A DNA stretch of 44,093 nt from an uncultured Burkholderiales bacterium (lineage in GTDB: Bacteria; Pseudomonadota; Gammaproteobacteria; Burkholderiales; Burkholderiaceae_C), in NCBI GenBank assembly GCA_903831655.1, contig CAIKYO010000297.1, forward strand, positions 1 through 44,093, read 5' to 3'. Positions 7,560-26,495 of this stretch are shown here, in pieces. How positions within the stretch are numbered: position 1 is the stretch's first letter; each line of letters begins with the position of its first letter. A program made the position numbers and the translations under genes. The notes under the pieces were generated by a model that saw only the letters and a list, made by a program, of their open reading frames with translations, was not told the origin of the DNA and made no database searches.

Positions 7560-7656
7560 GCCCCCAGTCTCCACGTGGGACAATGGGCTCACAAAAGAAG
7601 CGTTTCAAGACTCAACCCCTTTGATGCGACCCAAGAGCGATGGCACAATCTGAGGC

Positions 7657-8496: not shown

Positions 8497-8512
8497 CAAG
8501 ACATTGAGCTTG

Positions 8513-10508: not shown

Positions 10509-10531
10509 GGTATTCAATGCGAAAATACTGC

Positions 10532-11647: not shown

Positions 11648-12520
11648 TCACGCGTCGTAGCGCTGCCCCAACTCCAATAATTCCTGTGTACCAATCACAG
11701 AATTGAGACCATCAAAGTCGAGCATTTGGGATTGGAATGGCAGCGTCGTTTTGTGAGCTTGTAAGCTCTCAAAATAATGCTGCAAGGTGTGGGTCACAGC
11801 CCTTGCTGTACCACCAGGAAAGATCACGATCCTAAAGCCAATCGACTCCAATTCAGTGGCGCTCTTGACGGGTGTTTGCCCTCCCTCCACCATGTTGACC
11901 AAGAGCGGGATTTTGTGGGCGAATTGCTCACAAACCACCCGCATTTGCTCAGGTGTTTTGAGAGCTTCGACGAACAAGGCATCAACCCCACAATCCAAGT
12001 ATGCATGAGCTCTCTCAAGGGCTTGCTCGAACCCCTCGACAGCCAATGCGTCGGTTCTTGCCATGATGCAAGTTGACTCGCTCACTCTGCTGTCCAACGC
12101 CGCTTTAAGCTTACCCACCATTTCTGCCTGTGGCACCACGCCCTTGCCTTGCAAATGCCCACACCTCTTGGGGAATGTTTGATCCTCCAATTGAATCATG
12201 CTCGCCCCACAACGCTCGAACTCTCGGACCGTTCTTTGCGTGTTAAGGGCATTTCCAAAACCAGTGTCTGCATCCACAATCACAGGCACACTCACCCGCT
12301 CAGTGATGTGTGCCAGAGTCTGAGCCACCTCAGTGGCTGTGGTGAGCCCAATGTCTGATCGCCCCAATTTTGTGTAAGCAATCGATGCACCTGAGAGGTA
12401 GAGGGCCTCAAAGCCGCTTTGTTCGGCCACCAAAGCGCTTAGTGCGTCATAGACTCCGGGTGCGAGCAACACGCGCGACTCTGAGAGCCTGTCTTTGAAT
12501 GAGGTCTTGGATTGCTTCAT
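11648..12520 (-). CDS. PEP mutase/isocitrate lyase family lyase (methylisocitrate or dimethylmalate lyase-like)
   Basis: This 290-residue TIM-barrel protein is of the isocitrate lyase/PEP mutase superfamily. The metal-binding aspartates sit in IVDADTGFGN (Asp83, Asp85), Glu112 in QLEDQ, and the catalytic-loop motif PKRCGHLQGK has Cys120. An intact KRCGH loop is characteristic of true C-C lyases such as methylisocitrate lyase (PrpB) and 2,3-dimethylmalate lyase. Oxaloacetate decarboxylases and PEP mutases usually differ there. It is the last gene of the 13-gene operon, 24 bp after the flavoprotein gene. I infer that it cleaves a 2-hydroxy (or 2,3-substituted) dicarboxylate into pyruvate plus a shorter acid. 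PrpB itself is less likely because no prpC or prpD-type gene is nearby. Confidence 0.85.
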   Translation of the reverse strand: MKQSKTSFKDRLSESRVLLAPGVYDALSALVAEQSGFEALYLSGASIAYTKLGRSDIGLTTATEVAQTLAHITERVSVPVIVDADTGFGNALNTQRTVREFERCGASMIQLEDQTFPKRCGHLQGKGVVPQAEMVGKLKAALDSRVSESTCIMARTDALAVEGFEQALERAHAYLDCGVDALFVEALKTPEQMRVVCEQFAHKIPLLVNMVEGGQTPVKSATELESIGFRIVIFPGGTARAVTHTLQHYFESLQAHKTTLPFQSQMLDFDGLNSVIGTQELLELGQRYDA

Positions 12521-12544
12521 GGTGTTTTATCTCTTATAAAAAAA

Positions 12545-13990
12545 TCAATTCTCTTGGGACTGGATGTGTTGGGCCACACTTTGAGCTGCAATCAACCCAC
12601 CAGCCAATGCACTCAAGAGTCCGTTGCCAGACAAATAGCCCCAAACCGCACCGCCGGAGACACCACGTGCAGCTCCACCTGCAGCCCAAAGATTCTTAAA
12701 GGGCTGGCCACTCGAGTTCAACACGTGACATTCGCAATCAATGTTCAATCCGCCTTGCGTATGAAACAAGGCACCCGTTACATGGATGGCGTAAAAGGGT
12801 GGGGTCAACCGCCTCTTGAAAATTCGCTCTGCAGCTGAGGACTCTCTCTCGGCGTCAGACAAAAAAGAGGCTGCGGGATCCCCCAGGGGCCAATTGAGCT
12901 CGTGAGCCAGCACCTCATGATCACAACCAATGAGCTTGGCCAACTCGGTGACACTCTCACAGCGTTTGACCGCTCCCAATTGCTCGGCTTGAACAAAATC
13001 AGGAAAACCCCTGGCCAACTCCAACAGTTCGGAGTCAATCACAGCCCATGCCTGTCCACCCGGTTGAGACAGGACCTCGACAGCGGCCTCGGAGTAGCCT
13101 AGGGTCTCGTTGTGAAAGCGTTTCCCTTCGGAGTTGATTTGAACGCCACCTTGCATCATGATGGCCCATGTGATCAAACTGCCTTGAGGGATGGCCCACG
13201 AACCATGCCCTTGGTAGGCTCCCATGTCCTTCAAATCAACATCCAGATCTTTAGACCACAACACAGCAGCGCCATCATTGCCATGGTGACCGGCATAAAA
13301 AGCATTGGCAATGGCTGGCAAATACTCGCGCACGAGTTGTTCGTTTGCGCCAAATCCGTTGCAAGCCAATATCAAAGCTTGAACTCTGACGTACTCCATG
13401 CTTTGGTCAGGCCTTCTAAAACCCACACCCACAATGCAGTCCTGCGCATCCAAGACCAACTCCTGGGCATGCGCATGGTTGAGCAATGTGACCCCTGCTC
13501 GCTCAGCCGCACTGAGCAAGGCAGACATCAAGCCCGCCCCCGTTTTCTCCTTCACCGCATGCATGCGATATTGACTGTGTCCTGGGTACAAAAATTGATC
13601 CAAGACGTGCCACTCAATGCCGTGATTCAACTCCAAAGCATCAATGGCTTTTTGAACGGCGTGGCAATAAGCTTGCACCAAATGAGGAGCCGCAGTACCG
13701 TGCGCTTTGGATTGCACATCCGAAGCAAATACTTCAATCGAGTCTTGGATACCAGCGCGCTTTTGCGCCACCGTTTGCGCAGCTGGAACGAACCCAGAAG
13801 ACAACGCGGTCGATCCACTGGCGACACCATCTCGCTCTAACACCAAAGCCTCTACCCCAAGATCTTGCAACATCAATGCCGCAGTCAAGCCACATGCACC
13901 CGAGCCGATGATTCCCACAGGGAACTCGGGCCACTCGCTGGCGCTGTTGCCAAATTCTTGAAGGCGCCTGACTTGGTAGAGCTTGTTCAA
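12545..13990 (-). CDS. FAD-dependent oxidoreductase, fumarate reductase/TcuA-like family
   Basis: This 481-residue flavoprotein belongs to the FAD_binding_2 family (fumarate reductase, tricarballylate dehydrogenase TcuA, 3-ketosteroid dehydrogenases). The FAD-binding motif is GIIGSGACGLTAAL (about residue 27), followed by LERD and the ASGSTALSSG segment. The middle has GVQINSEGKRFHNE, and the C-terminal FAD/active-site segment is GGLNIDCECHVL followed by NLWAAGGAARGVSGG. These enzymes add or remove hydrogen across a C-C bond next to a carboxyl or carbonyl group. It has no haem motif or signal peptide, so it is probably cytoplasmic. It sits between the isochorismatase-fold gene (37 bp) and the lyase gene (24 bp). 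The substrate is unknown. Confidence 0.87.
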   Translation of the reverse strand: MNKLYQVRRLQEFGNSASEWPEFPVGIIGSGACGLTAALMLQDLGVEALVLERDGVASGSTALSSGFVPAAQTVAQKRAGIQDSIEVFASDVQSKAHGTAAPHLVQAYCHAVQKAIDALELNHGIEWHVLDQFLYPGHSQYRMHAVKEKTGAGLMSALLSAAERAGVTLLNHAHAQELVLDAQDCIVGVGFRRPDQSMEYVRVQALILACNGFGANEQLVREYLPAIANAFYAGHHGNDGAAVLWSKDLDVDLKDMGAYQGHGSWAIPQGSLITWAIMMQGGVQINSEGKRFHNETLGYSEAAVEVLSQPGGQAWAVIDSELLELARGFPDFVQAEQLGAVKRCESVTELAKLIGCDHEVLAHELNWPLGDPAASFLSDAERESSAAERIFKRRLTPPFYAIHVTGALFHTQGGLNIDCECHVLNSSGQPFKNLWAAGGAARGVSGGAVWGYLSGNGLLSALAGGLIAAQSVAQHIQSQEN

Positions 13991-14027
13991 AGTGCGCTTC
14001 CTGACTGAACTGGAATAACAAAATCTA

Positions 14028-14660
14028 TCACGCGCTCAGCTCCTGCAAAGCCTCAGCGCATGAAATGACCCGGCCCACATTTCGCATGTCGGCCAAAGCG
14101 GTGTTGTGCAACTCAGGCGAGAAGGCAGCACATCCGTCGCTGAGCACGGTGATGTCATAATCTCTCAAATGGGCATCGCGCGCGGTGCTATCGACCCCGC
14201 CATTGGTCACGATCCCACAGAGCACCAAGTGCTTGACCTGGGCTTTTTTAAGAACCCAGTCCAATTGGGTGTTGAAAAAGGCTGAATAAGCCACCTTGTG
14301 AACACACACATCAACCCAAGGCTTCAAAGGCTCAACCAACTCTTGCCCCCAAGAGCCTGGTGCAAAGTCACCCTTTTTGAGAAAGGGGCGCAAATTGAGC
14401 AAATGCTCTGAGATCATGGGCTCGCCCGATCCATCGGGCCAAAGCGTAAAGAGACTCGCACAAACCAATCCACCCTTGGATTTGATGGCTTGGGCAATGT
14501 CTTGAACCCTTTTGGGCAACAAAGCAGCAGACTCATTGGTGGCCCCTCCTCGTGCATAAGCACCCTTGGGATGCAAAAAATCATTTTGCAAATCCACAAT
14601 CACCAAGCCTATGCCTTGTTGATCTTCTTTTAAAACCTGACCCAGATTCTTAGCACCCAT
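14028..14660 (-). CDS. Isochorismatase-fold hydrolase-like protein lacking the usual Cys nucleophile
   Basis: This 210-residue protein has the isochorismatase/cysteine hydrolase fold (isochorismatase, N-carbamoylsarcosine amidase, maleamate amidohydrolase). The conserved Asp23 is in IVDLQNDF and Lys122 in VHKVAYSAFFN, but the nucleophile loop reads CGIVTNGGVDSTARDAH. Gly155 occupies the place of the Cys in the usual TxxCVxxTARDA. I checked the codons (AAT GGC GGG GTC), so this is not a frame error within the given sequence. Isochorismatases of the EntB/PhzD type also lack this Cys, so another hydrolytic mechanism is possible, as is a non-catalytic role. It lies 20 bp after hyuA and looks fully coding. 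Confidence 0.86.
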   Translation of the reverse strand: MGAKNLGQVLKEDQQGIGLVIVDLQNDFLHPKGAYARGGATNESAALLPKRVQDIAQAIKSKGGLVCASLFTLWPDGSGEPMISEHLLNLRPFLKKGDFAPGSWGQELVEPLKPWVDVCVHKVAYSAFFNTQLDWVLKKAQVKHLVLCGIVTNGGVDSTARDAHLRDYDITVLSDGCAAFSPELHNTALADMRNVGRVISCAEALQELSA

Positions 14661-14680
14661 GACAGTGGTCCATTTCTTTT

Positions 14681-16765
14681 CTAACTGTTTTTCTCAATCA
14701 ACAAATTACCCAAAGCATCTACCCTTGCAGAAAAGCCAGGCTCGAGCCACAAAGTGGTGTCGGCTTGTTCAAAAATACCAGGGCCTTGCAAATGAGCACC
14801 CACAGGCAAATTGAGTCTCGCATATCGCGGAACTTCTAACCAGGCTCCATTGTGGTAAACCCTTTGGTGGCCCAAAATCTCAGTTGATCCGCCAGCCTGG
14901 GGCGCCAAAAGAGAGAGGTCAAACTTGGGTCGAATACCTATACGGTGATAACGAACGTTAAGCACACGCACCATCAAGCCATTCAGTACACGGCCAAAAC
15001 TCTCATGGTAGGTCTTTTCAAAAGCCGCTTGAATCTCCCCCAACGTGACCTCTTCGCTGGCAAGCGCAACATTCAATGTGTGCGTTTGACCTGCATACAG
15101 CATATCCAGCGCAATGCCCTCTTCAATTCGAGTGAAATGCACTCGAGATGCTTCAAGCCTAGCCTGTGCCGATTCACGCAACGCTTTCACACGTTTGGAA
15201 AAATCAGACAAATCCAATTCCATGAGAGATCGATTCAAGGTTTGAACCGCATCAAATCGCATGTCTGCCATCACACACCCAAGTGCAGAGGTGACACCGG
15301 GGTAACGAGGCACAATCCCCACACTCACCCCAACCTCTTGGAGCATGGCACAAACGTGTAGCGCTCCACCACCTCCAAATGGCATGTAGGCAAACTGCCT
15401 TGGATCATGTCCTTTCTCAATGGAGACCAAGCGAATGGCTCCTGCCATCTTGGCGTTGGCAAGTTTTAAAATCGCCTGAGCAGCCTGGTACACATCAATG
15501 CCCAATGGCTTGGCCACATGCTCCTCAATGGCCTTGTGAGCCAAATTCAAATCCAATGCTTGAAGCAAACCGCCTCCCAATGGACGTGAGGCAGCGATCC
15601 TACCCAAAAGCACATTTGCATCGGTGACTGTGGGTCGGGTGTTTCCCTGCCCATAGCAAGCTGGCCCGGGTCTGCTTCCTGCAGACTCTGGACCCACTTG
15701 AAGCATGCCACTCGCGTCCACGCTAGCGATGGATCCCCCTCCAGCGCCTATGGTTTGAATTTGAATCATGGGGGAGCGCACCACCATGCCAAACTCAATG
15801 GAGGTCTGAGCAGCAAGAGACGCCTCTCCCTCACTTACCAAGGAGACATCAAATGAGGTGCCACCCATGTCACCGGTGATCACATTTTTAAACCCAGAGG
15901 CAATCGCAATTTGGGCACAAGCAATCACACCTGCAGCGGGGCCTGAGAGCGCGGTTTTAACGGGCAATTCTGAGGCTGTTTGTGCAGACATCACACCCCC
16001 ATTGCTTTGAACAATCAAGAAATCCCCGATAAACCCCTCGGCTCTTAAATCACTCTCCAAGCGGGCCAAATAACTACCGACAACGGGTTGCAAGGATGCA
16101 TTGATGCTTGCGGTTGAGGCTCTCTCTAACTCGCGTATTTCGGGCAACACCTCACTGGCAGCCGTCACATATTGATTGGGCCAAACTTGTTTGAGTGCTT
16201 GAAGGGCTGAGTTTTCATTGGAGGGATTTGCATACGCGTTGATGAAAAATATGCAAACCGCTTCACACCCTGCATCCAAGAGTTGTTTGGCACACGCTTT
16301 GACCTCTTGAGGATCCAAGGCCTCTAAAACGGTTCCATCGGCCAACACCCGCTCATTGACCTCCAAGCGCAGATCCCTAGAGATCAAAGGAATAAAGTCA
16401 CCTCTCAAACCCCAGGTGTGGGGCCTGTCTCTGCGTCGCATTTCAAGAACATCTCGAAATCCTTTTGTGGTGATCAAACCTGTTTTGGCCACCTTGCGCT
16501 CCAAAAGCGCATTGGTTGCAACTGTGGTTCCATGAACAAGGGTCGCAATTTGAGAAATCGATTTGGAGGAATCGCCTTCGTTAATTTGCCTCACTCCATT
16601 CATGAAACCCAATGCTTCTTGACCGCGTGTGGAGGGGACCTTGATCACCCGAGCCTCACCTTTTTGCTCATTGAGAACAAATAAATCGGTAAAAGTTCCG
16701 CCCACATCAACACCGATGATGTAGCGTGTATCTGATTGAGCAGATGTTTCAATGGATGAGGTCAT
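14681..16765 (-). CDS. hyuA: HyuA, hydantoinase/oxoprolinase family subunit A
   Basis: HyuA is the ATP-binding subunit of the N-methylhydantoinase/5-oxoprolinase/acetone carboxylase superfamily. Together with HyuB it opens a cyclic amide, or activates a carbonyl, at the cost of ATP. The N-terminal phosphate-binding motif GVDVGGTFTD (residues 18-27) and the central block TGDMGGTSFDVSL are diagnostic, as are IQTIGAGGGSIA and the MPFGGGGALH segment near the end of the catalytic domain. Its 694 residues match family length. The start ATG overlaps the hyuB stop by 4 bp, indicating translational coupling. The family does not predict the substrate; hydantoins, 5-oxoproline-like lactams and other cyclic imides are all possible. 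Confidence 0.95.
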   Translation of the reverse strand: MTSSIETSAQSDTRYIIGVDVGGTFTDLFVLNEQKGEARVIKVPSTRGQEALGFMNGVRQINEGDSSKSISQIATLVHGTTVATNALLERKVAKTGLITTKGFRDVLEMRRRDRPHTWGLRGDFIPLISRDLRLEVNERVLADGTVLEALDPQEVKACAKQLLDAGCEAVCIFFINAYANPSNENSALQALKQVWPNQYVTAASEVLPEIRELERASTASINASLQPVVGSYLARLESDLRAEGFIGDFLIVQSNGGVMSAQTASELPVKTALSGPAAGVIACAQIAIASGFKNVITGDMGGTSFDVSLVSEGEASLAAQTSIEFGMVVRSPMIQIQTIGAGGGSIASVDASGMLQVGPESAGSRPGPACYGQGNTRPTVTDANVLLGRIAASRPLGGGLLQALDLNLAHKAIEEHVAKPLGIDVYQAAQAILKLANAKMAGAIRLVSIEKGHDPRQFAYMPFGGGGALHVCAMLQEVGVSVGIVPRYPGVTSALGCVMADMRFDAVQTLNRSLMELDLSDFSKRVKALRESAQARLEASRVHFTRIEEGIALDMLYAGQTHTLNVALASEEVTLGEIQAAFEKTYHESFGRVLNGLMVRVLNVRYHRIGIRPKFDLSLLAPQAGGSTEILGHQRVYHNGAWLEVPRYARLNLPVGAHLQGPGIFEQADTTLWLEPGFSARVDALGNLLIEKNS

Positions 16766-18468
16766 GCCGCACCGCCTTTCTTTTGTGCGCTCACATAACC
16801 CAATTCAAGGTCACGCTCAATGGCCTCTTTGCTCCTGAGCTTGGAGTCTCCCCATGCCCCTCCACCTGGCGTACTCAGGCGAACACGTTCACCCTTTTTA
16901 AGCCGAATGCCATTGGCTTTGGCGCCCATGGGCGGCTTGATCCATTGACCATTTTGTTGATATTCAAATACATTCAATGCTGCATTGCCCCCTTGTGCGA
17001 TCCCTTTGGGAGGCGATTTGGCGCGCTCGCCAAACACAAAGGCTTGAGCACTTTCTTCCAAGAGCTCAATTTCATAGACAGCACCAAGCCCGCCTCTGTG
17101 CTTGCCGATGCCAGCCGAGTCTGCCCTCAAGGCCCATTGCGTGAACCTCACCGGATAAGCTGCCTCCAAGATTTCCAAGGGCGGTATGGTGGCCGTTGAG
17201 ATGGGCGCGTTTCCATGACTGAGTCCGTCTCCTTGGTCGTGACCTCCGTGGCCTCCACCAAAAAAACTAAACATTACCCAAGGCTGACCTTTCCTTTTGG
17301 CATCACTTCTTTGTCCTGCGATGGACAATGCATTGATGGTGCCATAGGCGTGCGCCACAGCCAGCGAGGGGTTGGCCAAGGCCATTGCGCTGAAAATGAC
17401 ATCAATCATTCTCAAAATGGTCTCTGTGTATCCACCCACAGGCTTGGGGCGGTGCGCACTGATGACGAGTCCATCTGGAATCACAAACTCCACAGCATCC
17501 AAGACTCCCGCATTGGCAGAGACGTCAGGAAAAATGTGTTTCAAGGCGACATAACAAGCGGCCACTGCTGTGGCGCGTGAAATGTTCACAGGACCAGCAC
17601 ATTGCGCAGAAGTTTTGGAGAAATCCAAAACCAGGCGATCGCCTTTGATGGTCATTTGCAGGGATATGTTGAGCAACTCATCGCTTACGCCATCGTTGTC
17701 CAAAACATCGGTGAAGTCGTACTGACCATCAGGCAAATCTGAAATGTGAGACTTCATCAACTGAAGCGTTCTGCGCCTGAGCTCACCAAAGGCAGTTTGC
17801 ACCATTTCCTCAGAATACTCTTCAAGCAAATCATCCAGCCTCTTGACCCCCAAATCGAGAGCCGCCAACTGAGCATTCAAGTCTCCCCACAAACTATCAG
17901 GCAAGCGGGTGTTGGCTCGCAAAATGGCCAAAACGTCTTGAACCAGCTCACCGCCTTGAACGATTCGAACCGGTGGAATTTGAACCGCCTCTTGCCAGCA
18001 CTCGGTTGCGACAGGGTTGTAGTTACCTGGAACGGCTCCTCCCACATCGTGCCAATGGGCAGCGGAGGCCAAGAAGCAAAAGAGCTTTCCGCCCCTAAAG
18101 TAAGGCCTCACCAACTTAAAGTCATTGGCATGTGTTCCTCCCTCGTAGGGGTCGTTAAAGAGCCAGGTATCGCCTTGACTCATTCCGCCTCGCTCTGCGG
18201 CAACACCTTGTGCCGAGCGAACGGCAAAAGCCATCACGCCCACAAAGATGGGCAACCCAGATTTACCTTGGACCAAAGTGTCACCACTTTGCGCGTCATA
18301 CAAACCATGACATGCATCATGTGCCTCAGCGATGATGGGATTAAAAGCACTTCGATACAGTGTGGCGTCCATTTCATCGGCGATTTGCTCAAGCCGCCCC
18401 TTCAAGACCGCCAACGTCACAGGGTCCATGCCATGAGCGTCACCTGATTGATTTAAATTGTGTTGCAT
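16762..18468 (-). CDS. hyuB: HyuB, hydantoinase/oxoprolinase family subunit B
   Basis: HyuB is the partner of HyuA. The 568-residue protein starts with DPVTLAVLKGRLEQIADEM and contains the family blocks GDTWLFNDPYEGGTHANDF, HWHDVGG and GGYTETILRM. It ends with the glycine-rich STPGGGAWGD typical of the C terminus. It lies 34 bp after the LeuD-like gene and overlaps hyuA by 4 bp (ATGA). A second Met at residue 14 (MDPVT) is an alternative start; no strong Shine-Dalgarno distinguishes the two. It is shorter than acetone carboxylase alpha, which argues for hydantoinase-type chemistry. Confidence 0.95.
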   Translation of the reverse strand: MQHNLNQSGDAHGMDPVTLAVLKGRLEQIADEMDATLYRSAFNPIIAEAHDACHGLYDAQSGDTLVQGKSGLPIFVGVMAFAVRSAQGVAAERGGMSQGDTWLFNDPYEGGTHANDFKLVRPYFRGGKLFCFLASAAHWHDVGGAVPGNYNPVATECWQEAVQIPPVRIVQGGELVQDVLAILRANTRLPDSLWGDLNAQLAALDLGVKRLDDLLEEYSEEMVQTAFGELRRRTLQLMKSHISDLPDGQYDFTDVLDNDGVSDELLNISLQMTIKGDRLVLDFSKTSAQCAGPVNISRATAVAACYVALKHIFPDVSANAGVLDAVEFVIPDGLVISAHRPKPVGGYTETILRMIDVIFSAMALANPSLAVAHAYGTINALSIAGQRSDAKRKGQPWVMFSFFGGGHGGHDQGDGLSHGNAPISTATIPPLEILEAAYPVRFTQWALRADSAGIGKHRGGLGAVYEIELLEESAQAFVFGERAKSPPKGIAQGGNAALNVFEYQQNGQWIKPPMGAKANGIRLKKGERVRLSTPGGGAWGDSKLRSKEAIERDLELGYVSAQKKGGAA

Positions 18469-18502
18469 AAGATGTGAAAATTAATAAATCTCTAAGGATG
18501 GA

Positions 18503-19000
18503 TCAGGTGTTTTTCATTTTTAGTTTCAAGACATTCATCAGTCCCTTTTGCTCAACCATGTCCATGAGGAAGTCGGGAATGGGCTCGCATGCCAAAGCCT
18601 CTCCATTGAGCTTTTGAAGCCTTTGCCCCTCCAAGACCACGAGCTCGCCATCTTGGAGCTCCTCGGCCCTTGGGCAGGTGAGCAAAAGCAATCCTAGATT
18701 AAATGCATTTCTAAAAAATAGCCCACTGAAAGATGGGGCTATCACAGCTTTCACGCCCAAGTGCACCAACAAACACGCGGCTTGTTCACGTGAGGATCCA
18801 ACACCAAAACCCTGACCTGCAACCATGACATCACCGGGTTTGACTTCAGATGCAAACTCTGAGCGAACGGACTCCAGTACATGTTTTGCAATGACCTCAA
18901 TGGTGTACTTCATGTACGCGCCTGGGGCCAAGGTATCGGTGTCAATTTGGGAGCCAAATTTCCAGACCCGTGAAGGCGATATTGAATTCAAGGTGCTCAT
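18503..19000 (-). CDS. LeuD-like hydratase small subunit (aconitase swivel domain)
   Basis: This 165-residue protein is the swivel-domain subunit of a two-part aconitase-family hydro-lyase. The family features seen are the start KFGSQIDTDTLAPGAYM and the signature GQGFGVGSSREQAA with APSFSGLFFRNAFNLGLLLL. The Ser-Arg of GSSREQA binds the substrate carboxylate. The start ATG overlaps the LeuC-like stop by 4 bp. Relatives include the small subunits of isopropylmalate dehydratase, maleate/citraconate hydratase and dimethylmaleate hydratase (DmdB). With no leuB or leuA here and a catabolic context, a hydratase of a catabolic intermediate is more likely than leucine synthesis. That is inference from context. 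Confidence 0.88.
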   Translation of the reverse strand: MSTLNSISPSRVWKFGSQIDTDTLAPGAYMKYTIEVIAKHVLESVRSEFASEVKPGDVMVAGQGFGVGSSREQAACLLVHLGVKAVIAPSFSGLFFRNAFNLGLLLLTCPRAEELQDGELVVLEGQRLQKLNGEALACEPIPDFLMDMVEQKGLMNVLKLKMKNT

Positions 19001-20271
19001 GCCAAGACCTCACGAACATCGGTGATCACACCCCGAAGCGCGCTGGCCGCCACGGTCCAAGGTGAACCCAAAAACACTTGCACACTGGCAGGCCCCATTC
19101 GAGCTTTGAAGTTGCGTGCAGTGCTGGACATGACCGTTTGCCCCTCGTCAAATGTTGCGCCATAACCAGCACAAGCACCACAAGAATTGGGCAATACCAC
19201 CGCACCAGCTTCAACCAAGGACTGCATCACCCCTTCACGCTCAGCTTGTTGTTGATCCCTTAGACTTGCAGGGGCCACCATCAACTTAACGGTTGAACTG
19301 ATTTTTTTACCTTTGAGCACTTGAGCTGCTGCTCGCAAGTCTTCGAGCTTGGCGCCTGTACAAGCTCCGATGTAGGCCACATCAATGCTTTGCCCCACAT
19401 GTTCACCAACATCTTTGGTGTTGGCCGGGGAATGGGGAGCAGCGACCTGGGGAGCCAAGTGGCTCGCATCAAAATCAAAACATCTTTGTTGAGCACCCTC
19501 ATCGGTGTGCCACCAATGCAAGTCCTCCAATTGATCTTGCCTGACACCAACGCCCATTAAATATTCTTTTGTGATTTCATCCGCAGCGATCAAACCAGCT
19601 TGTGCGCCCAACTCAGCACTCATGTTGGTGAGCGTCATGCGCTCTTGCATGCCCAGTGCCCTCACCGCGGGCCCCGCGAACTCAACCGCTTGGTACTCAC
19701 CACCATTCATCCCCAAAGTGGCAACCATGTGCAAGGCCATGTCCTTCGCACAGACCCCCTTTTGAAGGGTCCCAGACCAATTCATTTGAAGCGTCTGGGG
19801 CACTTTGAGCCAAATCTCACCTGTGACCACCACCCCCAACATCTCAGTGGCTCCAATGCCAAACATATAGCAACCAAATGCGCCTCCGGTGGGCGAATGA
19901 GAATCGCCTCCGACACAAAAAAGGCCCGGCCTTAAATGCCCCCGCTCTGGGAGAACGACGTGGCAGATGCCCTCAGAGTCGATCACGTGAGGCAATTTCC
20001 ATTCTTGAGCCACCTTGCGTGTGATGTGAACGATTTGCTCAGAGTCCGCATCTCTTGCTGGAACATAATGATCCAGGACCAAAACAACTTTGTTTTTATC
20101 CCAAATTTTTGCCCCCAGTTCCTTGAGCCATGGATCGAGTCTTCTGGGGCCTGAGGAATCATGGAACATGGCCAAATCCACCGCACAGTTGACGATTTCA
20201 CCTGGAACGACCAGGGAGCGTGAAGAAGCTTTGGCAATGATTTTTTGCGCCAAGGTTTGAGCTTGTTTCAT
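18997..20271 (-). CDS. LeuC-like hydratase large subunit ([4Fe-4S] aconitase family)
   Basis: This 424-residue aconitase-family catalytic subunit would hydrate or dehydrate an unsaturated di- or tricarboxylate using a [4Fe-4S] cluster. Likely cluster ligands are Cys304 (GACTGAKLEDL), Cys364 and Cys367 (NSCGACAGYG). Other family motifs are VLDHYVPARD, GGDSHSPTGGAFG and the end segment STARNFKARMG. The cluster loop GACTGAK differs from the GSCTNGR usual in leucine-pathway LeuC, which points to a divergent paralogue. Its stop overlaps the LeuD-like start, and its start overlaps the stop of the receptor gene, both by 4 bp. Dimethylmaleate hydratase DmdA and maleate hydratase are plausible relatives. 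Confidence 0.89.
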   Translation of the reverse strand: MKQAQTLAQKIIAKASSRSLVVPGEIVNCAVDLAMFHDSSGPRRLDPWLKELGAKIWDKNKVVLVLDHYVPARDADSEQIVHITRKVAQEWKLPHVIDSEGICHVVLPERGHLRPGLFCVGGDSHSPTGGAFGCYMFGIGATEMLGVVVTGEIWLKVPQTLQMNWSGTLQKGVCAKDMALHMVATLGMNGGEYQAVEFAGPAVRALGMQERMTLTNMSAELGAQAGLIAADEITKEYLMGVGVRQDQLEDLHWWHTDEGAQQRCFDFDASHLAPQVAAPHSPANTKDVGEHVGQSIDVAYIGACTGAKLEDLRAAAQVLKGKKISSTVKLMVAPASLRDQQQAEREGVMQSLVEAGAVVLPNSCGACAGYGATFDEGQTVMSSTARNFKARMGPASVQVFLGSPWTVAASALRGVITDVREVLA

Positions 20272-21299
20272 TCTGGCTTGGCTCCAGAGAACTTAACCAC
20301 CTCACTCCAGCGAACGATATCGGCTTGCACGAATTTGGCAAATTCCTGGGGTGAGTTTCCAACAGGTGAAGCCCCTTCGGCCTCGATTCGCTTTTTAACC
20401 TCAGGCGATTGAACCGCCCAAATAGCTGCTTCACTGAGGCGCTTTAAAACCTCTGGCGACATCTTGGCAGGTCCAAAAAGGCCAAACCAGGCATTGGACT
20501 CAAATCCAGGCAAGGTCTCTGAAATACTTGGAACCTCGGGGAATTCGGGAAGCCTCTTGAGCGAGGTCACAGCCAGTGGCTTTAATTTTCCAATTGCAAT
20601 GTACTGCTTGGCATTTCCTATGTTGGCAAACATCATCTGCACTTGGCCTGCCAAGACATCTTGAATCGCAGGAGCCGTTCCACGGTAGGGGATGTCAACG
20701 ATGTCAACGCCCGCTTTCATCTTGAAGGCGTCCCCTGCCAAGTGCAATGAAGACCCCATCGCTCCCACTGCAAAATTCAATTGATTGGGCTTTTTCTTGG
20801 CCAATGCGATCAACTCTGACAAGTTGTTAGCAGGCAAGGAGGGATGAGCCACCAAAATAGAGGGCGAGGTCGAAACCATGGTGATGGGTGTGAAGTCTTT
20901 CACGGGATCAAATGGCAAGCGAGGATAAAGACTTGCGTTGATGGCGTGAGAGGTAAAACTCATGAGCAAGGTGTTTCCATCAGGCTCAGCGCGGGCCACC
21001 GCCTCAGCTGCCAAGTTGCCACCTGCACCCGTTTTATTTTCAATCAACACCGTCTTGGAGAGTGCCTGTCCTAGGGCTTGCGCCAAGGCTCGGGCCATCG
21101 TGTCGGTGGTGCCACCGGCTGGTGCACCCACCAAAATTCGAACGGGAGAGGTCTCAGAATGAGCGCCCAATGCGAGTCCCAACGAAAGCAAAATGAACAT
21201 CGACACACGGACGCATACACCCATGAAAGCATTGTTTTTTCCTCCAGGGCTTGAAGGGCTAGTAAACGCTTGGAATTGATTAACAAAAATTTGAAACAT
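20268..21299 (-). CDS. Bug/TctC-family periplasmic solute receptor
   Basis: This is a tripartite tricarboxylate transporter receptor (Bug family), which binds organic acids and similar solutes in the periplasm. After a hydrophobic segment (MFILLSLGLALGAHS) the mature part has the family block PVRILVGAPAGGTTDTMARALAQAL. It continues with ENKTGAGGNLAAEAVARAEPDGNTLL and a C-terminal EGASPVGNSPQEFAKFV. I chose the ATG at 21299 because GAGG lies 5 bases upstream. Met at 21224 would give a shorter, more usual signal peptide, with GGAGG rather far (16 nt) upstream. No tctA or tctB membrane genes are in the window. It sits between livF and the LeuC-like gene, coupled to the latter. Confidence 0.92.
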   Translation of the reverse strand: MFQIFVNQFQAFTSPSSPGGKNNAFMGVCVRVSMFILLSLGLALGAHSETSPVRILVGAPAGGTTDTMARALAQALGQALSKTVLIENKTGAGGNLAAEAVARAEPDGNTLLMSFTSHAINASLYPRLPFDPVKDFTPITMVSTSPSILVAHPSLPANNLSELIALAKKKPNQLNFAVGAMGSSLHLAGDAFKMKAGVDIVDIPYRGTAPAIQDVLAGQVQMMFANIGNAKQYIAIGKLKPLAVTSLKRLPEFPEVPSISETLPGFESNAWFGLFGPAKMSPEVLKRLSEAAIWAVQSPEVKKRIEAEGASPVGNSPQEFAKFVQADIVRWSEVVKFSGAKPE

Positions 21300-21321
21300 A
21301 CTCACCTCAAAAATTCAGGGG

Positions 21322-22035
21322 TTAAACACCCAGATAAGCTTTTCGCATGGCATCACTGGCCAACAATTCACTTGGAACGCCTTCAAATTTGATGATGCCG
21401 TTTTCAAGCACATAAGCTCGCTCGGCAATTTCCAAGGATTGACCCACATTTTGTTCCACCAATAATATGGACAGACCCGAGGCCCTCAAGCGCTCAATCA
21501 AGTCAAACATCTCTTGAACCAACTTGGGAGACAAGCCCAGGGAAGGCTCATCCAAAATCAGCAACCTGGGCTCCGACATCAGTGCTCGACCAATCGCAAG
21601 CATTTGCTGCTCACCTCCACTCATGGTCCCAGCCAGTTGATTCATGCGCTCCTGAAGACGGGGAAAGATCTCTAAAACCTTGGCCTTGTTGGCGCGCAAA
21701 TTAGGAGCACCTCGCTCATAGGCACCCAAGTTCAAATTTTCTGAAACACTGAGATCTGGGAAAACCTTTCTACCCTCTGGCACTTGAATCAATCCAGCTT
21801 GCACAATTTTCGTATAGTGCGCATGACTCAAATCTTGACCGCCAAAGATCACTTGACCTGATTTGTTCGATAAGAGACCGCACAGCGCATGGTTAAGTGT
21901 TGTTTTTCCTGCCCCGTTACTGCCCAAAAGTGCAACGAGCTCGCCCTCATTCACTTGCAAGCTGATACCACGCAAAATTTCTACCGAGCCATAACCCGCC
22001 CTCAGCTCTCGCACTTCTAAGATAGGTGACTTCAT
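21322..22035 (-). CDS. livF: LivF-type ABC transporter ATP-binding protein
   Basis: This is one of the two ATPases of a branched-chain amino acid-type (HAAT) ABC importer. Walker A GSNGAGKT is at residues 38-45, the ABC signature is TMSGGEQQMLAIGRAL, Walker B is LLILDEPSLGLSP, and the H-loop is followed by VEQNVGQSLEIA. Its 237 residues are typical of LivF. The start overlaps the livG stop by 4 bp. In this operon the transporter may carry an amide, acid or cyclic compound rather than leucine; Liv-type importers have broad ranges. Confidence 0.93.
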   Translation of the reverse strand: MKSPILEVRELRAGYGSVEILRGISLQVNEGELVALLGSNGAGKTTLNHALCGLLSNKSGQVIFGGQDLSHAHYTKIVQAGLIQVPEGRKVFPDLSVSENLNLGAYERGAPNLRANKAKVLEIFPRLQERMNQLAGTMSGGEQQMLAIGRALMSEPRLLILDEPSLGLSPKLVQEMFDLIERLRASGLSILLVEQNVGQSLEIAERAYVLENGIIKFEGVPSELLASDAMRKAYLGV

Positions 22036-22787
22036 GTTGTCTCCTTTTGAGCGAAACGCTTGAGTTTTTGTGCAGTACCCTGCCCCAAGTAAGCCTCAAT
22101 CACCGAGGGATCTTGCGTGACCTCGTGCGGCAAACCCTTTGAGATCAATTGCCCTTGGGAAAGCACCCAAACGTACTGGGCCAAACTCATCACCGCTTGC
22201 ATGACATGCTCAATCATCAACACGCTCACCCCACTGTCACAAATCCTTTGAATGACAGGAAGCATGTCTTGAATTTCTTGAGGGTTGAGCCCAGCAAGCA
22301 CCTCGTCCAAAAGCAAGAGCTTGGGTCGAGTTGCAAGCGCTCTGGCCAACTCCAATCGTTTGCGACCCGCAACTGTGAGCTCTCCAGCTTTTTGATCAAA
22401 AATACCTGACAGTCCCACTTGAGAGGTGACCTCTCTCGCCCTGGACAGGGCCTCTTTGCGGGATGCACAATGCAAGTGAGCGCCCACGGCCACGTTCTCA
22501 CCTACCGTTTGGGCAGCAAAGGGCTGCACGATTTGAAACGTTCGCGTGAGTCCTGCAGCTGCTCTTGCGTAGGGGCTCAAAGAGGTTATGTCTTGACCCG
22601 CCAATTCCACGCGCCCCAAATCGGGCTTCACGAAACCGGAAATGATTGAGAAAAAAGTGGTCTTCCCTGCTCCATTGGGGCCAATCAATGCACCCAGAGT
22701 CCCTTGCTCAAGCTCAAGACTCACGCCTTGCACAGCCTTTAATCCACCAAAGGAGACGCTCACATCTTCTACATTGAGTAGCTTCAC
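22032..22787 (-). CDS. livG: LivG-type ABC transporter ATP-binding protein
   Basis: This is the second ATPase of the Liv-type importer. Walker A GPNGAGKT is at residues 36-43. The segment preceding Walker B reads LTVAGRKRLELARAL in place of a strict LSGGQ, a variant I recall in many LivG proteins. Walker B is LLLLDEVLAGLNP. The longer insert with ITSLSPYARAAAGLTRTFQI between Walker A and the signature is typical of LivG and separates it from LivF. Its 251 residues are usual. It follows livM by 11 bp and overlaps livF by 4 bp. Confidence 0.93.
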   Translation of the reverse strand: MKLLNVEDVSVSFGGLKAVQGVSLELEQGTLGALIGPNGAGKTTFFSIISGFVKPDLGRVELAGQDITSLSPYARAAAGLTRTFQIVQPFAAQTVGENVAVGAHLHCASRKEALSRAREVTSQVGLSGIFDQKAGELTVAGRKRLELARALATRPKLLLLDEVLAGLNPQEIQDMLPVIQRICDSGVSVLMIEHVMQAVMSLAQYVWVLSQGQLISKGLPHEVTQDPSVIEAYLGQGTAQKLKRFAQKETT

Positions 22788-22798
22788 GATTTCTTCCC

Positions 22799-23785
22799 TT
22801 AAGAATTCAGCTTGGAATCAACGGCAATCCCGCCTCTTGACTCAGGCTTGGAGCTCAGTGAAGAGAACAAGCCAATCAAACCCTTTGGTAAAAACATGAT
22901 GATCGCGATCAGCAACGACCCATAAACGACCATATTGATTCCTGGTAATTCGCCCAAGAAATTACGCGTCAAACTCGATAACAATTCGAGTGCAAATGCA
23001 CCAAGCACCGGCCCCCACAACGTTCCCATTCCACCCACAATGGCACCCACCAAAGCAGCCACTGAAGTATGAGCGCCGTATGCGAGGTTGGGGTCTATGT
23101 ACTGAAAGACTTGTACATAAAAGCACCCTGCAGCACCCATTAGAGCCGCAGAGATGGAAATAGCGAAAAACTTGACCTTGAGCGGATTGACACCCAAAGC
23201 CTTTGCCGCATCTTCATTATCTCGGACTGCTTGCAAATATGCACCGAGTCGAGAATTCTTCAACCAAAGCGTGATTGCCAATGCAATCACATTCATCGAG
23301 AGAATTAACTCTATGAAGCCGGTTTTTGATGAGAACTGCATGTTGCTAAAAGACTCCGACAAAGGAAGCATCAAACCAACACCAGCGCCGGTAATCGAAC
23401 TCGACAAAGAAAGGATTCGAAATACCTCAGCAAACGCCAAGGTAATGAGAGCGAAGTAAGAGCCCCTCAGACCGTAGCGAAAAGAAATCCAACCCAAAAC
23501 GCCACCCAAAAGGGAAGAAATAGAAATTGCAAGTGCAAGTGCAACCCAAGGATTCACACCATATTGGATTTGAAAAATTGCTTGGGCGTATGCGCCCGTT
23601 CCAAAAAAGAGGGCATGGCCGAAGGACAACTGCCCCCCAAACCCACCCAAGATGTTCCATGACTGGGACATCAAACAAGCAAAAAGCGCCATCATGAGTG
23701 CATTAAGTAAGACGCCAGAATGGGTGAACACAGGCAGACACGCAAAGCCAACGGCGAATAGGACGATCAACCTAAAATCTTTCAT
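22799..23785 (-). CDS. livM: LivM-type ABC transporter permease
   Basis: This 328-residue inner-membrane permease pairs with LivH. Hydrophobic segments alternate through the whole sequence (about eight to nine spans by eye), beginning with LIVLFAVGFACLPV. The family-conserved loop NLGGFGGQLSFGHALFFG-like sequence lies near residue 47, and the EAA-like loop around AVRDNEDAAKALGVNPLKVKFFA contacts the ATPases. The start overlaps the livH stop by 4 bp. Confidence 0.93.
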   Translation of the reverse strand: MKDFRLIVLFAVGFACLPVFTHSGVLLNALMMALFACLMSQSWNILGGFGGQLSFGHALFFGTGAYAQAIFQIQYGVNPWVALALAISISSLLGGVLGWISFRYGLRGSYFALITLAFAEVFRILSLSSSITGAGVGLMLPLSESFSNMQFSSKTGFIELILSMNVIALAITLWLKNSRLGAYLQAVRDNEDAAKALGVNPLKVKFFAISISAALMGAAGCFYVQVFQYIDPNLAYGAHTSVAALVGAIVGGMGTLWGPVLGAFALELLSSLTRNFLGELPGINMVVYGSLLIAIIMFLPKGLIGLFSSLSSKPESRGGIAVDSKLNS

Positions 23786-24654
23786 CGTTTGGCTCCAAAA
23801 AGACCTTGAGGCCGAATCAACAAAACGATAATGAACAGAATAAAAATACCAACTTGACCTAAGGAGTCCCCCAAAAAGAGCCCTCCCAATGACTCCACCA
23901 CGCCGATGAGCAAACCACCCACCACGGCTCCGGCAAAACTACCCATACCGCCCAGCACCACCACTGTGAAGGCGACGAGCACAAACCCGCCCCCAACACC
24001 AGGATTAACGTAATAAGCGGGCAACAAAAAACAAGCTGCAGCGCCTAAACAAGCCAACCCAATTCCAAAACTCATGGCATAGACATGCTCAACATCTATA
24101 CCCATTAAGCGAGCACCTTGTTTTTCTTTGGCGACGGCGCGAATGGCCAATCCAATTTTTGTGTATTTCATCATTGCGATGAGCAACAATGACATGCAAG
24201 CAGCGCCCAAGCAAGCAATGATTTTAGGCAACGCAATCATGGCTGGACCCACTGCAACGGTTGTGAGTGTGTAGGCAGTTTCAATGTTTCGGGTATCGGA
24301 TTTAAAAAACAGCAGAGCTAAATTTTCAAGAACAATGGACAAGCCCAAAGTCACCAACAAAATATTTTCATCCTTACCATGACTGGCCCTGTCGATGACC
24401 AAGCGCTGCAAAGCGTAGCCAAGAACAAACATACCTGGCACCATTAGAACCAATGCCCAATAGGGATCCAGCCCCAAATTCACTTTTAAAAAGTAAACAC
24501 CATACAAGGCAAGCATCAGTGCCGCACCATGCGCGAAATTGATGATGTGGAGAACCCCATAAATGAGCGTCAACCCAAGGGCAATCAAGATGTAAACAGC
24601 CCCAGAGGTTAACCCATTGAGAAGGGATGAATAAATAATAGCTACGTCAAACAT
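23782..24654 (-). CDS. livH: LivH-type ABC transporter permease
   Basis: This 290-residue inner-membrane permease is largely hydrophobic. The conserved N-terminal block LLNGLTSGAVYILIALGLTLIYG leads into HIINFAHGAALML, the LivH signature. The cytoplasmic coupling loop contains AIRAVAKEKQGARLMGIDVEHVYAMSF. It is the first permease gene after livK, separated by 132 bp with a hairpin, and overlaps livM by 4 bp. Confidence 0.94.
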   Translation of the reverse strand: MFDVAIIYSSLLNGLTSGAVYILIALGLTLIYGVLHIINFAHGAALMLALYGVYFLKVNLGLDPYWALVLMVPGMFVLGYALQRLVIDRASHGKDENILLVTLGLSIVLENLALLFFKSDTRNIETAYTLTTVAVGPAMIALPKIIACLGAACMSLLLIAMMKYTKIGLAIRAVAKEKQGARLMGIDVEHVYAMSFGIGLACLGAAACFLLPAYYVNPGVGGGFVLVAFTVVVLGGMGSFAGAVVGGLLIGVVESLGGLFLGDSLGQVGIFILFIIVLLIRPQGLFGAKR

Positions 24655-24672
24655 GCGCCTGAACTCATGGTA

Positions 24673-24701
24673 AATAAAGAGGCTTGCATTTTCAGCAAGC
24701 C
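24673..24701 (-). terminator. Hairpin between livK and livH
   Basis: On the minus strand a perfect 7-bp stem (GGCTTGC / GCAAGCC, 7-nt loop) is followed by TCTTTATTTA. A partial terminator between the receptor gene and the permease genes is common in ABC operons; it lets the receptor be made in excess. The T run is broken by A and C, so readthrough into livH is expected. Confidence 0.5.
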
Positions 24702-24786
24702 CCTAGAGATGAGAAAACTTAAAGCTCGAGAGTCAAATGCGTTGAAAGACCAACTACATCAAACCCTCGACTCTTGTGTTCAAGGC

Positions 24787-25989
24787 TCAAGCATTCAACG
24801 GGAAGATGGGTTCTGCCTCTCTGTATTCCCTGGGCACAATCACCTTGATGTCACCTTTGATGACTTGAGTCATCAAGGGTTGTGCACCTGTGTTTTGGCC
24901 GTTGATGAACTGTGTGGGACCAAAGGGCAGGAAGTGATCGCTAAAAGTGCTCTTGTTCAAAGCATCAATGATTGCGGCACGATCGGTAGATTTTGCGTGA
25001 TCTATCGCATCTGCCAACAACTTCACTGCTGTGTAGGTCAACCACACTTCATAGCTGTAAAAAAGTCCTTTCGCTTCTACCCGTTTTTTAAGCGCGAATG
25101 CACGCTTGTCTTTGGGATTAAACCAATGGTTGCAATCAATAATGCCGTTGGCTGCATCAGGGAACTCTTTGACAAATTTGTAGCTAGATGCTGCGCCCCC
25201 TAACACCGAGTAAATGGCCTTGGGCACGACCTTTTGCTGTTTCATGGTGCGAACCAAGAGCGCGTACTCATCAAAATAATTGGCTGGAATCACGATATCG
25301 GGATTCACTTGCTTCATGCGCAACACAATGTTGTTGAAGTCTCTCGTGGGGTTGGGGTGCTTTAAAACCTCTTTGATTTCATAGCCATAACCGGGCAACT
25401 CCGCGGACAACAAATTGGCGGTTCCAGTGCCAAACAGTGATTCCTCATGAATGATCATCACTGTTTTTGCAGGCTTACCAGCGGCCGTATTCAGTACGTG
25501 CAAATTAGAAACTGCAATTTGTGCGCATTTTTTGTAACCAGGCCCGAAGCGGAAGGTGTTTTTCAAGCCACGCTCCATGATTTGGTCAGCAACACCAACG
25601 TCAACCACGTGAGGCAAGTTGTATTTGGCCGCAGTTTGTGTGGTCGCGAGACAAATGGCGGAAGCGTAAGCACCCACCACCGCACATACACCAGCATCGT
25701 TCATTTTTTCAACTTCAGCACTTCCGCCTTGAGGCGTGGACTGAGCATCTCCAAGAAGGGCTTCAATTTTGGCTCCACCTAAGGAGCGAATGCCACCGGC
25801 TGCATTGATGTCCTCAATGGCCATCAATGCCCCAGTGCGACACTGCTGACCCGAATAAGCCAAAGCACCTGTTACAGGGTGGATGATTCCAATTTTTACG
25901 CTTTGCGCTTGAGCGCCTCCGACCATTGGAAAAGCAAGCGTTGAGGCTGCAGCCACGCTTTGAGAAATGAATTGACGACGAGAATTCAT
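24787..25989 (-). CDS. livK: LivK-type periplasmic substrate-binding protein with Tat-like signal
   Basis: This 400-residue receptor belongs to the Leu/Ile/Val-binding family (type I periplasmic-binding fold) for the LivHMGF importer. The ATG at 25989 has an excellent Shine-Dalgarno (AAAGGAGA, 5-nt spacer). The N terminus, NSRRQFISQSVAAASTLAF, carries a twin-arginine motif and should be cleaved after AQA. The mature part begins VKIGIIHPVTGALAYSGQQ and contains the ligand-pocket region EKMNDAGVCAVVGAYAS. It is the first gene of the operon and should be preceded by its promoter. The ligand is unknown; by context it is the substrate of the HyuAB pathway rather than a branched-chain amino acid. 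Confidence 0.92.
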   Translation of the reverse strand: MNSRRQFISQSVAAASTLAFPMVGGAQAQSVKIGIIHPVTGALAYSGQQCRTGALMAIEDINAAGGIRSLGGAKIEALLGDAQSTPQGGSAEVEKMNDAGVCAVVGAYASAICLATTQTAAKYNLPHVVDVGVADQIMERGLKNTFRFGPGYKKCAQIAVSNLHVLNTAAGKPAKTVMIIHEESLFGTGTANLLSAELPGYGYEIKEVLKHPNPTRDFNNIVLRMKQVNPDIVIPANYFDEYALLVRTMKQQKVVPKAIYSVLGGAASSYKFVKEFPDAANGIIDCNHWFNPKDKRAFALKKRVEAKGLFYSYEVWLTYTAVKLLADAIDHAKSTDRAAIIDALNKSTFSDHFLPFGPTQFINGQNTGAQPLMTQVIKGDIKVIVPREYREAEPIFPLNA

Positions 25990-26495
25990 CAAAATCTCCT
26001 TTGAGTGATGGGTCAAATTTATTGAAATACTTTAGTAGGTAAGCATACATTAAAGACAAAGGGTTCTGTGGCTCAGGCCTTTAAAAATTTTATGAGTCGT
26101 TTAACGATCTCGACTCACTGAGTTGCAATCAGCAAACTCTCGGCTAGCTATCAACCCTATGGAAATAGGGAGTTTTGAATTTAAGAATTGAGACGCAAAA
26201 ATGTCAGAAGCAATCTCAATTCCTGAATAGATAAGAAGGGCTATGGTCAGCCCCTTTCTTACTGCAGCGGCCAAGCTCAGGCTCACCCTATGGTTTTTCA
26301 AAATCAAGTCAAGATTGCATTAGCTTTTATGCTGTCCTTTAAGCAAAAAATGAAAGCTTAGAAATCCACCCTCAAAAATTAATACAAAAGATTTCATAAA
26401 ACAAACGATAACCAGTGGCCTACTCTTTGCTTTGATAAACACATTGATAAATTTCTGACACCCCTACCATCCCTATTCATTTGAGGTAAACATCA
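25990..26495. other. Divergent intergenic region, livK operon / 26.5-kb gene
   Basis: I see no credible gene in these roughly 500 bases; the open frame at 26101-26307 (minus) has no Shine-Dalgarno and no recognisable content. The promoter of the 13-gene livK operon should lie in the left part. A weak candidate on the minus strand is TTGTCT, 16 bp, TACTAA. Two hairpins occur: CCCTAT-GGAA-ATAGGG at 26155-26170 followed by AGTTTTGAATTT, and an imperfect AAGAAGGGCT/AGCCCCTTTCTT at about 26233-26260. No known regulator site is recognisable. Confidence 0.35.

Follow-up and report, generated by a model that had tools for sequence, protein, structure and literature searches.

In nicotinate fermentation, the dimethylmaleate hydratase DmdAB is followed by a 2,3-dimethylmalate lyase. 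Cyclic imidases, according to the excerpts of PMC9304392, are related to the family that holds the allantoinase PuuE. Here we analyse a stretch of 44,093 nucleotides from an uncultured Burkholderiales bacterium (CAIKYO010000297.1; the window, taken at its full length), one contig of a 3.54-Mb, 463-contig genome. The open reading frame (ORF) listing of the window gives 13 minus-strand ORFs at 11648-25989, and all features described below lie on that strand unless stated otherwise. In order of transcription, this operon encodes a LIV-type binding protein, LivH, LivM, LivG, LivF, a TctC receptor and a LeuC-like protein, then a LeuD-like protein, HyuB, HyuA, an isochorismatase-fold protein, a flavin adenine dinucleotide (FAD) enzyme and a lyase of the phosphoenolpyruvate (PEP)-mutase/isocitrate-lyase (ICL) type.

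Judging from these genes, we think it rather likely that the products of the operon import and open a substituted five-membered cyclic imide and then cleave the resulting acid. The pathway class, catabolism of a cyclic amide and most likely an imide, is probable; the substrate proposed below is hypothetical.

Results

One downstream core is paired with three unrelated ring-opening enzymes

Relatives of the operon were taken from all 53 places outside the window where the lyase occurs in 399 genomes of the family, from three in 369 genomes of the class and from 14 loci selected among the results of two plasmid-record searches. Scanning genome contigs with the LeuC-like protein as query contributed the best 80 of 88 confirmed relatives. 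Our tally of 149 loci uses tblastn counts with a homologue threshold of 50% identity for the lyase, and leaves out the duplicate strain L140 and short match-only loci. The lyase is found in 115 of these loci, LeuC in 110 and HyuA or HyuB in 67. Among the 67 HyuA/HyuB loci, the counts are 60 for the lyase, 59 for the isochorismatase-fold gene and 55 for the FAD gene; four of the seven without the lyase (L009, L014, L016 and L024) and five of the eight without the isochorismatase-fold gene stop at a contig edge. Genes for ring opening and for acid catabolism are thus linked in these loci, and the linkage extends over several families of Proteobacteria. A first-pass annotation of the operon had proposed conservation of gene order as a check, and the order does recur in many relatives; an outcome that it named as refuting, hydratase and lyase genes unlinked from hyuAB, is not what the 60 of 67 loci show.

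The opener in the window is HyuAB, encoded by adjacent genes with a 4-bp overlap. HyuA (14681-16765) carries the hydantoinase A N-terminal, core and C-terminal domains and HyuB (16762-18468) matches the hydantoinase B domain PF02538 at 528 bits, which places the pair in the HyuAB/oxoprolinase family of ATP-dependent cyclic-amide hydrolases. The best NCBIfam models are caprolactamase alpha for HyuA (523.2 bits against a cut-off of 1000) and caprolactamase beta for HyuB (264.5 against 1000), neither cut-off being reached.

In 15 other loci a single gene stands in place of the whole HyuAB-isochorismatase block; it encodes a hydantoinase/allantoinase-type amidohydrolase, here called dihydropyrimidinase (DHPase)-type. 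The HxH motif is kept in 15/15 of these proteins, and alignment of the L134 protein with allantoinase shows that the metal-site lysine, two further histidines and the aspartate are kept as well. Within the fetched stretches, homologues of HyuA, HyuB and the isochorismatase-fold protein were found in 0/15 DHPase-type loci. The FAD gene is present in all 15 and LeuC in 13, the other two lying on contigs under 10 kb. DHPase-type enzymes act mostly on imides and ureides. A third opener, a PuuE-type protein pair, is found in three loci: L083 (on a Burkholderia plantarii plasmid), L172 and L184.

On a tree of 116 lyases (FastTree), the distribution of the three openers needs 10 changes, and the starred branches alone force at least 5 changes for HyuAB and at least 3 each for the DHPase-type and PuuE-type openers. 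L139 (DHPase-type) and L162 (HyuAB) are sisters on this tree, L162 being a long branch. The same LeuCD-FAD-lyase core is repeatedly paired with three unrelated cyclic-amide openers, an observation that is new here. Because unrelated openers of the cyclic-amide class adjoin one core, a cyclic-amide substrate is supported; we regard opener exchange as the strongest evidence on the function of the module, and the genes point to a cyclic amide, most likely an imide. The order of events suggested by the first-pass annotation (cyclic amide to acyclic acid to hydroxy acid, then lyase) gains support, now with the replacement of the opener by two other folds.

Further arrangements occur among the relatives. 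In L093 and L169, an LLM monooxygenase, a short-chain dehydrogenase/reductase (SDR), a cysteine-less isochorismatase-fold protein, the lyase, LeuCD, RibBA and a flavin reductase are clustered, and this cluster would be another ring-opening version. In L180, leuD and the DHPase gene are separated by an insertion (7407-10381) that encodes a thiolase, a DUF35-type protein and a 3-oxoacid CoA-transferase pair. In L136 and L149, AtuA-like and DUF4387 proteins, an SDR and another LIV transporter stand ahead of GntR-LeuCD-FAD-lyase, with no known opener (Pfam on L136 only). A tautomerase-like protein of about 160-190 amino acids lies in or near the clusters of L037, L055, L088-L091 and L197; the L197 protein (42% identity) is encoded beside the glutaryl-CoA dehydrogenase gene gcdH and a CoA-transferase gene. 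In Neorhizobium (L091, with HyuAB) and Tistrella (L090, without), the lyase is accompanied by genes of the MmgE/PrpD and Asp/Glu-racemase families.

The hydratase, lyase and FAD enzyme of the core

The large hydro-lyase subunit (18997-20271; LeuC/HacA-type, [4Fe-4S], Pfam aconitase domain) scores 227.1 bits against the leuC model TIGR00170, whose cut-off is 560.25. It passes NF001614 (500.8 against 385) and TIGR01343 (403.5 against 385.7) and just misses TIGR02086 (397.8 against 410.15). The small subunit (18503-19000), identified as LeuD/HacB-type by alignment to small subunits of isopropylmalate isomerases and homoaconitases, has an AYMKY loop and passes TIGR02087, a broad LeuD/DmdB-family model (149.8 against 108.95). 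By eye, the sequence shows the GSSRE motif of LeuD, and cysteines where those of the cluster would be expected. By the cut-offs of both subunits, the pair is assigned to the homoaconitase/LeuC archaeal-type hydro-lyase subfamily. Another leuC in the genome, with leuD adjoining it, scores 761.3 bits and so passes the curated cut-off, for which reason we do not take the window pair to be biosynthetic. The view of the first-pass annotation that these proteins are no genuine isopropylmalate isomerase is thereby borne out by model score, and the reading as a biosynthetic LeuCD was rejected.

The lyase (11648-12520; PF13714, 157 bits) has prpB (TIGR02317) as its best NCBIfam model, at 285.9 bits against a cut-off of 354.4 that it does not reach. 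The window protein reads DADTG at the metal site, where D[AGC]D[TN]G is kept in 114/114 alignable relatives, as expected of the ICL/PEP-mutase superfamily. The KRCGH loop that the first-pass annotation had recognised is present in the window protein and in 113 of the 114, the remaining one having KKCGH. An arginine kept in all 114 aligns with an arginine in PrpB (1mum) and with a tyrosine in petal death protein (1zlp); this residue presumably binds a distal carboxylate, and the substrate of PrpB carries one. The source genome has a second, distant lyase (L198, G000:C463 1709-3956, on a 4.1-kb contig) that is 38% identical to that of the window and is directly followed by a bacterial-type LeuC, 44% identical to that of the LLM-type cluster.

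The FAD enzyme (12545-13990; Pfam FAD_binding_2) resembles fumarate reductases, its best solved structures, and TcuA. It lies below the cut-offs of the flavocytochrome c and TcuA models (118.7 of 369 bits for the latter) and is assigned to neither family. Seven uncut HyuAB loci (L050-L052, L057, L060, L061 and L084) have no FAD gene, a patchiness that fits a step needed for saturated substrates only.

The isochorismatase-fold partner is uniformly without its catalytic cysteine

The protein encoded at 14028-14660 passes the fold model PF00857 and does not have the complete Asp-Lys-Cys triad of a half-amidase: aligned with RutB, it keeps the triad Asp and Lys and has Gly for Cys (TNGGV against TNVCV). 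The same replacement is found in 59/59 HyuAB-linked homologues, of which 58 have TNGGV and one SNGGV. The cysteine is kept (TSGC) in the two PuuE-linked proteins seen, those of L083 and L184, and in L060 and L061 a second, cysteine-bearing copy adjoins the cysteine-less one. The LLM-type isochorismatase-fold proteins (L093, L169) are also without it. Since the cysteine is absent, the protein is not a thiol amidase, and the half-amide step of the first-pass annotation cannot stand in its ordinary form.

Alkylated maleamic acids lose ammonia by attack of the neighbouring carboxylate. The isochorismatase-fold protein may thus help the half-amide to lose its ammonia intramolecularly, the adjacent cis-carboxylate perhaps acting as nucleophile. 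If release is intramolecular, DHPase-type loci could dispense with this protein. Alternatively, it may perform a different hydrolysis altogether.

Glutarate genes adjoin the module in a few relatives

Downstream of the lyase on the Burkholderia plantarii plasmid (L083) follow genes for a porin, electron-transfer flavoproteins, glutaryl-CoA dehydrogenase and a CoA-transferase. The dehydrogenase, encoded 3.4 kb from the lyase, scores 735 bits to 3gnc; for the CoA-transferase the top model, at 542 of 750 bits, is succinate-glutarate CoA-transferase. In two Limnohabitans genomes (G689 and G786; loci L196 and L197), genes for a GcvA-like LysR regulator, gcdH and a CoA-transferase of the same type (465 and 457.5 bits) lie upstream, beyond the GntR gene of the operon, with gcdH divergent from it. 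L136 has a CoA-transferase homologue after the lyase that is cut by the contig end and scores 148 bits over half of the model.

By our own arithmetic, gcdH would fall within about 4 kb of the operon by chance in roughly 0.2-0.3% of loci. Three gcdH loci among some 150-180, about two independent events, are therefore suggestive but not conclusive of a non-chance link. Genome-wide co-occurrence was discarded as uninformative, gcdH being present in 40/40 good Limnohabitans genomes and in 367/399 family genomes. From these neighbours, the shorter product of the lyase is probably glutarate in at least some relatives. If the lyase yields glutarate and a 2-oxoacid, the parent ring would bear a carboxyethyl group, which with a methyl on the other carbon makes it hematinic acid; a saturated ring would make it dihydrohematinic acid, whose breakdown would require the FAD gene.

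Importer genes, operon layout and neighbourhood

The importer genes follow the binding-protein gene (24787-25989; LIV-type, Pfam Peripla_BP_6), whose ORF extends to a TTG at 26016, the internal ATG being the start at 25989 used in the first-pass annotation. They encode permeases of the LivH type (23782-24654) and LivM type (22799-23785), both with Pfam BPD_transp_2, and ATP-binding cassette (ABC) ATPases of the LivG type (22032-22787; ABC_tran and BCA_ABC_TP_C) and LivF type (21322-22035; ABC_tran). The periplasmic TctC/Bug-type receptor (20268-21305) matches PF03401 at 244 bits.

From the lyase end upward, the gaps between genes are 24, 37, 20, -4, 34, -4, -4, 16, -4, 11, -4 and 132 bp. Recomputation reproduced what had been reported earlier: 13 minus-strand genes with gaps of at most 37 bp and five 4-bp overlaps, apart from one 132-bp gap with a hairpin. 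One transcript, as proposed then, is likely because of the short gaps and overlaps, with the reservation that the 132-bp gap (24655-24786), which separates the binding-protein gene from the rest, may hold an attenuator ahead of the remaining genes. This region folds at -50.3 kcal/mol (z = -5.1; 0/200 shuffles equally stable) and has a terminator-like stem of 10 pairs at 24704-24678. The terminator scan gave 23 sites in the region against 19.5 expected, and by itself is no proof.

The lyase is found at E <= 1e-90 in 47/399 genomes of the family, the source genome included, and in 36/84 Limnohabitans genomes. Among the best 80 of 88 relatives in the LeuC scan are Limnohabitans, Achromobacter, Bordetella, Cupriavidus, Mesorhizobium, Rhodospirillales and SAR324; twelve of these 80, at 37-41% identity, look like a different hydratase. 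One record, CALQKH020000003.1 (L020), is titled Akkermansia muciniphila and has a Limnohabitans-like operon; it is probably mislabelled or contaminated. A GntR-UTRA gene is found in 64/149 loci and none lies beside the operon of the window; with one relative as query and no positive control, a genome search gave none at E <= 1e-20.

In G802 (L201), the nearest relative found, whose lyase is 92% identical, the segment matching 13907-26415 of the window (12.5 kb) is missing. About 330 unaligned bases stand in its place, the lyase and most of the FAD gene are left, and the flanks align at 83% and 79%. Either most of the operon was lost naturally or the gap is an assembly effect; without most of it in G802, the operon would be dispensable.

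A ferrochelatase gene (10484-11632) is convergent with the operon. Homologues occur in 4/149 loci (L018, L022, L036 and L038; 65-67%) and in L201 (90%). We give this neighbour no weight as a sign of tetrapyrrole metabolism: it reflects synteny among close kin on the lyase tree, with no family-wide linkage.

Discussion

A proposed pathway and its alternatives

We infer every reaction, the reaction order and the substrate from the sequences. The LIV-type ABC importer would take up the imide, perhaps helped by the TctC receptor, and HyuAB would open the ring with ATP. Ring opening and ammonia release would leave a substituted succinate or maleate, with saturated forms oxidised by the FAD enzyme to the C=C form. 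Hydration by the LeuCD-like enzyme would then yield a substituted malate or isocitrate, and the PrpB-like lyase would cleave this product to a shorter acid and a 2-oxoacid that is probably pyruvate.

Our best single guess at the substrate, leading but unproven, is hematinic acid or its dihydro form, a tetrapyrrole ring fragment with a methyl and a propionate group. The triacid from ring-opened hematinic acid would be a methyl homologue of homoaconitate. We put forward tentatively, as one possibility, that the operon mineralises hematinic or dihydrohematinic acid from chlorophyll, heme or bilins through ATP-dependent imide opening, carboxylate-assisted ammonia release, hydration of methyl-homoaconitate and a methylhomoisocitrate lyase that gives pyruvate and glutarate. 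The earlier idea of a tetrapyrrole-derived substrate survives in this form, with a propionate-bearing ring preferred over methyl-vinyl or methyl-ethyl maleimide. Excerpts of PMC7318184 report that hematinic acid was detected in leaves, where maleimides were not, and cite earlier work for hematinic acid and maleimides in senescent leaves and lake sediments. The same excerpts state that chlorophyll is made and degraded at a scale of 10^12 kilograms per year.

Several observations weigh against this interpretation. Twenty loci have LeuCD and the lyase without any of the three openers (15 without and 5 with the FAD gene; L027, L059, L182 and L185 among them are on contigs under 8 kb), ten Cupriavidus loci have LeuCD and no lyase at 50% identity, and in ten loci a TauD-type dioxygenase accompanies the lyase while LeuCD is absent. 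L050-L052 have HyuAB and LeuC with neither the lyase nor the isochorismatase gene within 21 kb. Because of these opener-less, LeuCD-less and lyase-less loci, LeuCD and the lyase need not have a single substrate. The best solved-structure match of the lyase, 4iqd, is named carboxyvinyl-carboxyphosphonate phosphorylmutase rather than methylisocitrate lyase; methylisocitrate lyases come next and 2,3-dimethylmalate lyase (3fa3) ranks 12th. Loss of the cysteine also fits another reaction altogether, and the DHPase-type loci, with no isochorismatase homologue, leave the half-amide step unexplained there. All CoA-transferase scores are below the curated cut-off; gcdH adjoins the module in no more than three loci, two of which share genus and arrangement, leaving about two independent events, and among the tallied loci it is found in 1/149 (L083 only). 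A LeuD lysine, found in 106/110 loci (Gln in L147, L148, L149 and L180), is weak evidence, since the biosynthetic LeuD of the same genome also has lysine there; as proof of a third carboxylate it was downgraded on both counts.

The TauD-type loci (L092, L156, L159-L161, L163, L164 and L166-L168) also hold a TctC receptor, and hydroxylation perhaps replaces dehydrogenation plus hydration in them.

A simpler imide, such as methyl- or dimethyl-maleimide or succinimide, processed by an analogue of DmdAB and dimethylmalate lyase to pyruvate and acetate, propionate or butyrate, is an alternative that we consider doubtful. That LeuD passes the LeuD/DmdB-family model and that 3fa3 is among the solved relatives of the lyase would agree with it, and the excerpts of PMC7318184 count methyl, methyl-ethyl and methyl-vinyl maleimides among the products of tetrapyrroles. 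It leaves unexplained the glutarate genes beside the module in three loci, and the PrpB-type arginine in 114/114 alignable lyases, with its presumed distal-carboxylate role, argues against it. The dimethylmaleimide/dimethylmalate analogy drawn by the first-pass annotation thus gives way to a substrate with an extra carboxylate, which fits the three glutarate loci and PrpB as best model better.

Opening of a lactam or six-membered N-heterocycle by HyuAB, with the cysteine-less protein hydrolysing an enamine or enol-type bond rather than an amide, seems unlikely. Caprolactamase is the best NCBIfam model for HyuA and HyuB, with scores far under the cut-off; the missing cysteine and the version with LLM monooxygenase, RibBA and flavin reductase are consistent with such a route, while the relationship of PuuE-type openers to imidases and allantoinase and the usual DHPase-type substrates, imides and ureides, speak for a different ring. 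Hydantoin and 5-oxoproline, candidates of the first-pass annotation, are poor fits, because their known routes need no hydratase and no lyase, and both were rejected on this general knowledge. A route from isonicotinate or citrazinate to aconitate was considered only; a dedicated lyase is not needed there. Finally, records annotate LeuC relatives as 3-isopropylmalate dehydratase and one lyase as oxaloacetate decarboxylase, but the chance placement beside a hydantoin operon of a second isopropylmalate isomerase, together with PrpB or an oxaloacetate decarboxylase, is highly improbable, given a LeuC at 227 of 560 bits, another leuC above the cut-off and linkage conserved over several families of Proteobacteria.

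Significance

Modular pathway evolution is clearly illustrated here: the downstream core stays constant, and two unrelated folds have repeatedly taken the place of one ring-opening enzyme. The isochorismatase-fold partner of HyuAB, cysteine-less throughout, sets a defined enzymological puzzle. To our knowledge, bacterial use of the single-ring imide fragments of chlorophyll has not been worked out, and no such hematinic-acid route is in print. The presence of the operon in freshwater Limnohabitans, in soil- and plant-associated bacteria, in Sulfitobacter and in Rhodospirillales would make this question testable. In the open-access literature, which is only part of print, we found no hematinic-acid route and no report of a hydantoinase in Limnohabitans; nor did we find there a report that combines hydantoinase, isopropylmalate dehydratase, isocitrate lyase and isochorismatase. 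As far as these searches show, the operon is an undescribed combination of known enzyme families.

Comparison with known systems

The operon shares parts with five described systems. With the ATP-dependent HyuAB family (oxoprolinase, N-methylhydantoinase and caprolactamase) it has in common both subunits with full Pfam domains; the window proteins differ in reaching no NCBIfam equivalog cut-off. We know of no oxoprolinase, N-methylhydantoinase or caprolactamase pathway with a gene context like that of hyuAB in the window. The TcuA tricarballylate dehydrogenase is likewise an FAD enzyme, ours being proposed to dehydrogenate a polycarboxylate, and the window protein differs by its score of 118.7 against a 369-bit cut-off and by the absence of tcuB and tcuC among the 13 genes.

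The end of the methylcitrate cycle offers a closer parallel for the second half of the pathway: a methylated unsaturated acid is hydrated and a KRCGH lyase follows, with PrpB as best NCBIfam model. The lyase is nevertheless below the prpB cut-off, no prpC or prpD is among the 13 genes, and an opener and an importer are present. DmdAB with dimethylmalate lyase gives the same succession of a LeuCD-family hydratase and an ICL-superfamily lyase, a likeness at the level of enzyme families. In contrast to nicotinate fermentation, the operon has hyuAB, and three relatives have glutarate genes alongside.

Cyclic-imide degradation, as represented by HxnM/HxnN of Aspergillus nidulans and the P. putida imidase in the excerpts of PMC9304392, also proceeds by ring opening and then ammonia release, and the imidase family described there has relatives in the PuuE-type openers of L083, L172 and L184. 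The window departs from it in having the ATP-dependent HyuAB with a cysteine-less partner, and a further hydratase and C-C lyase.

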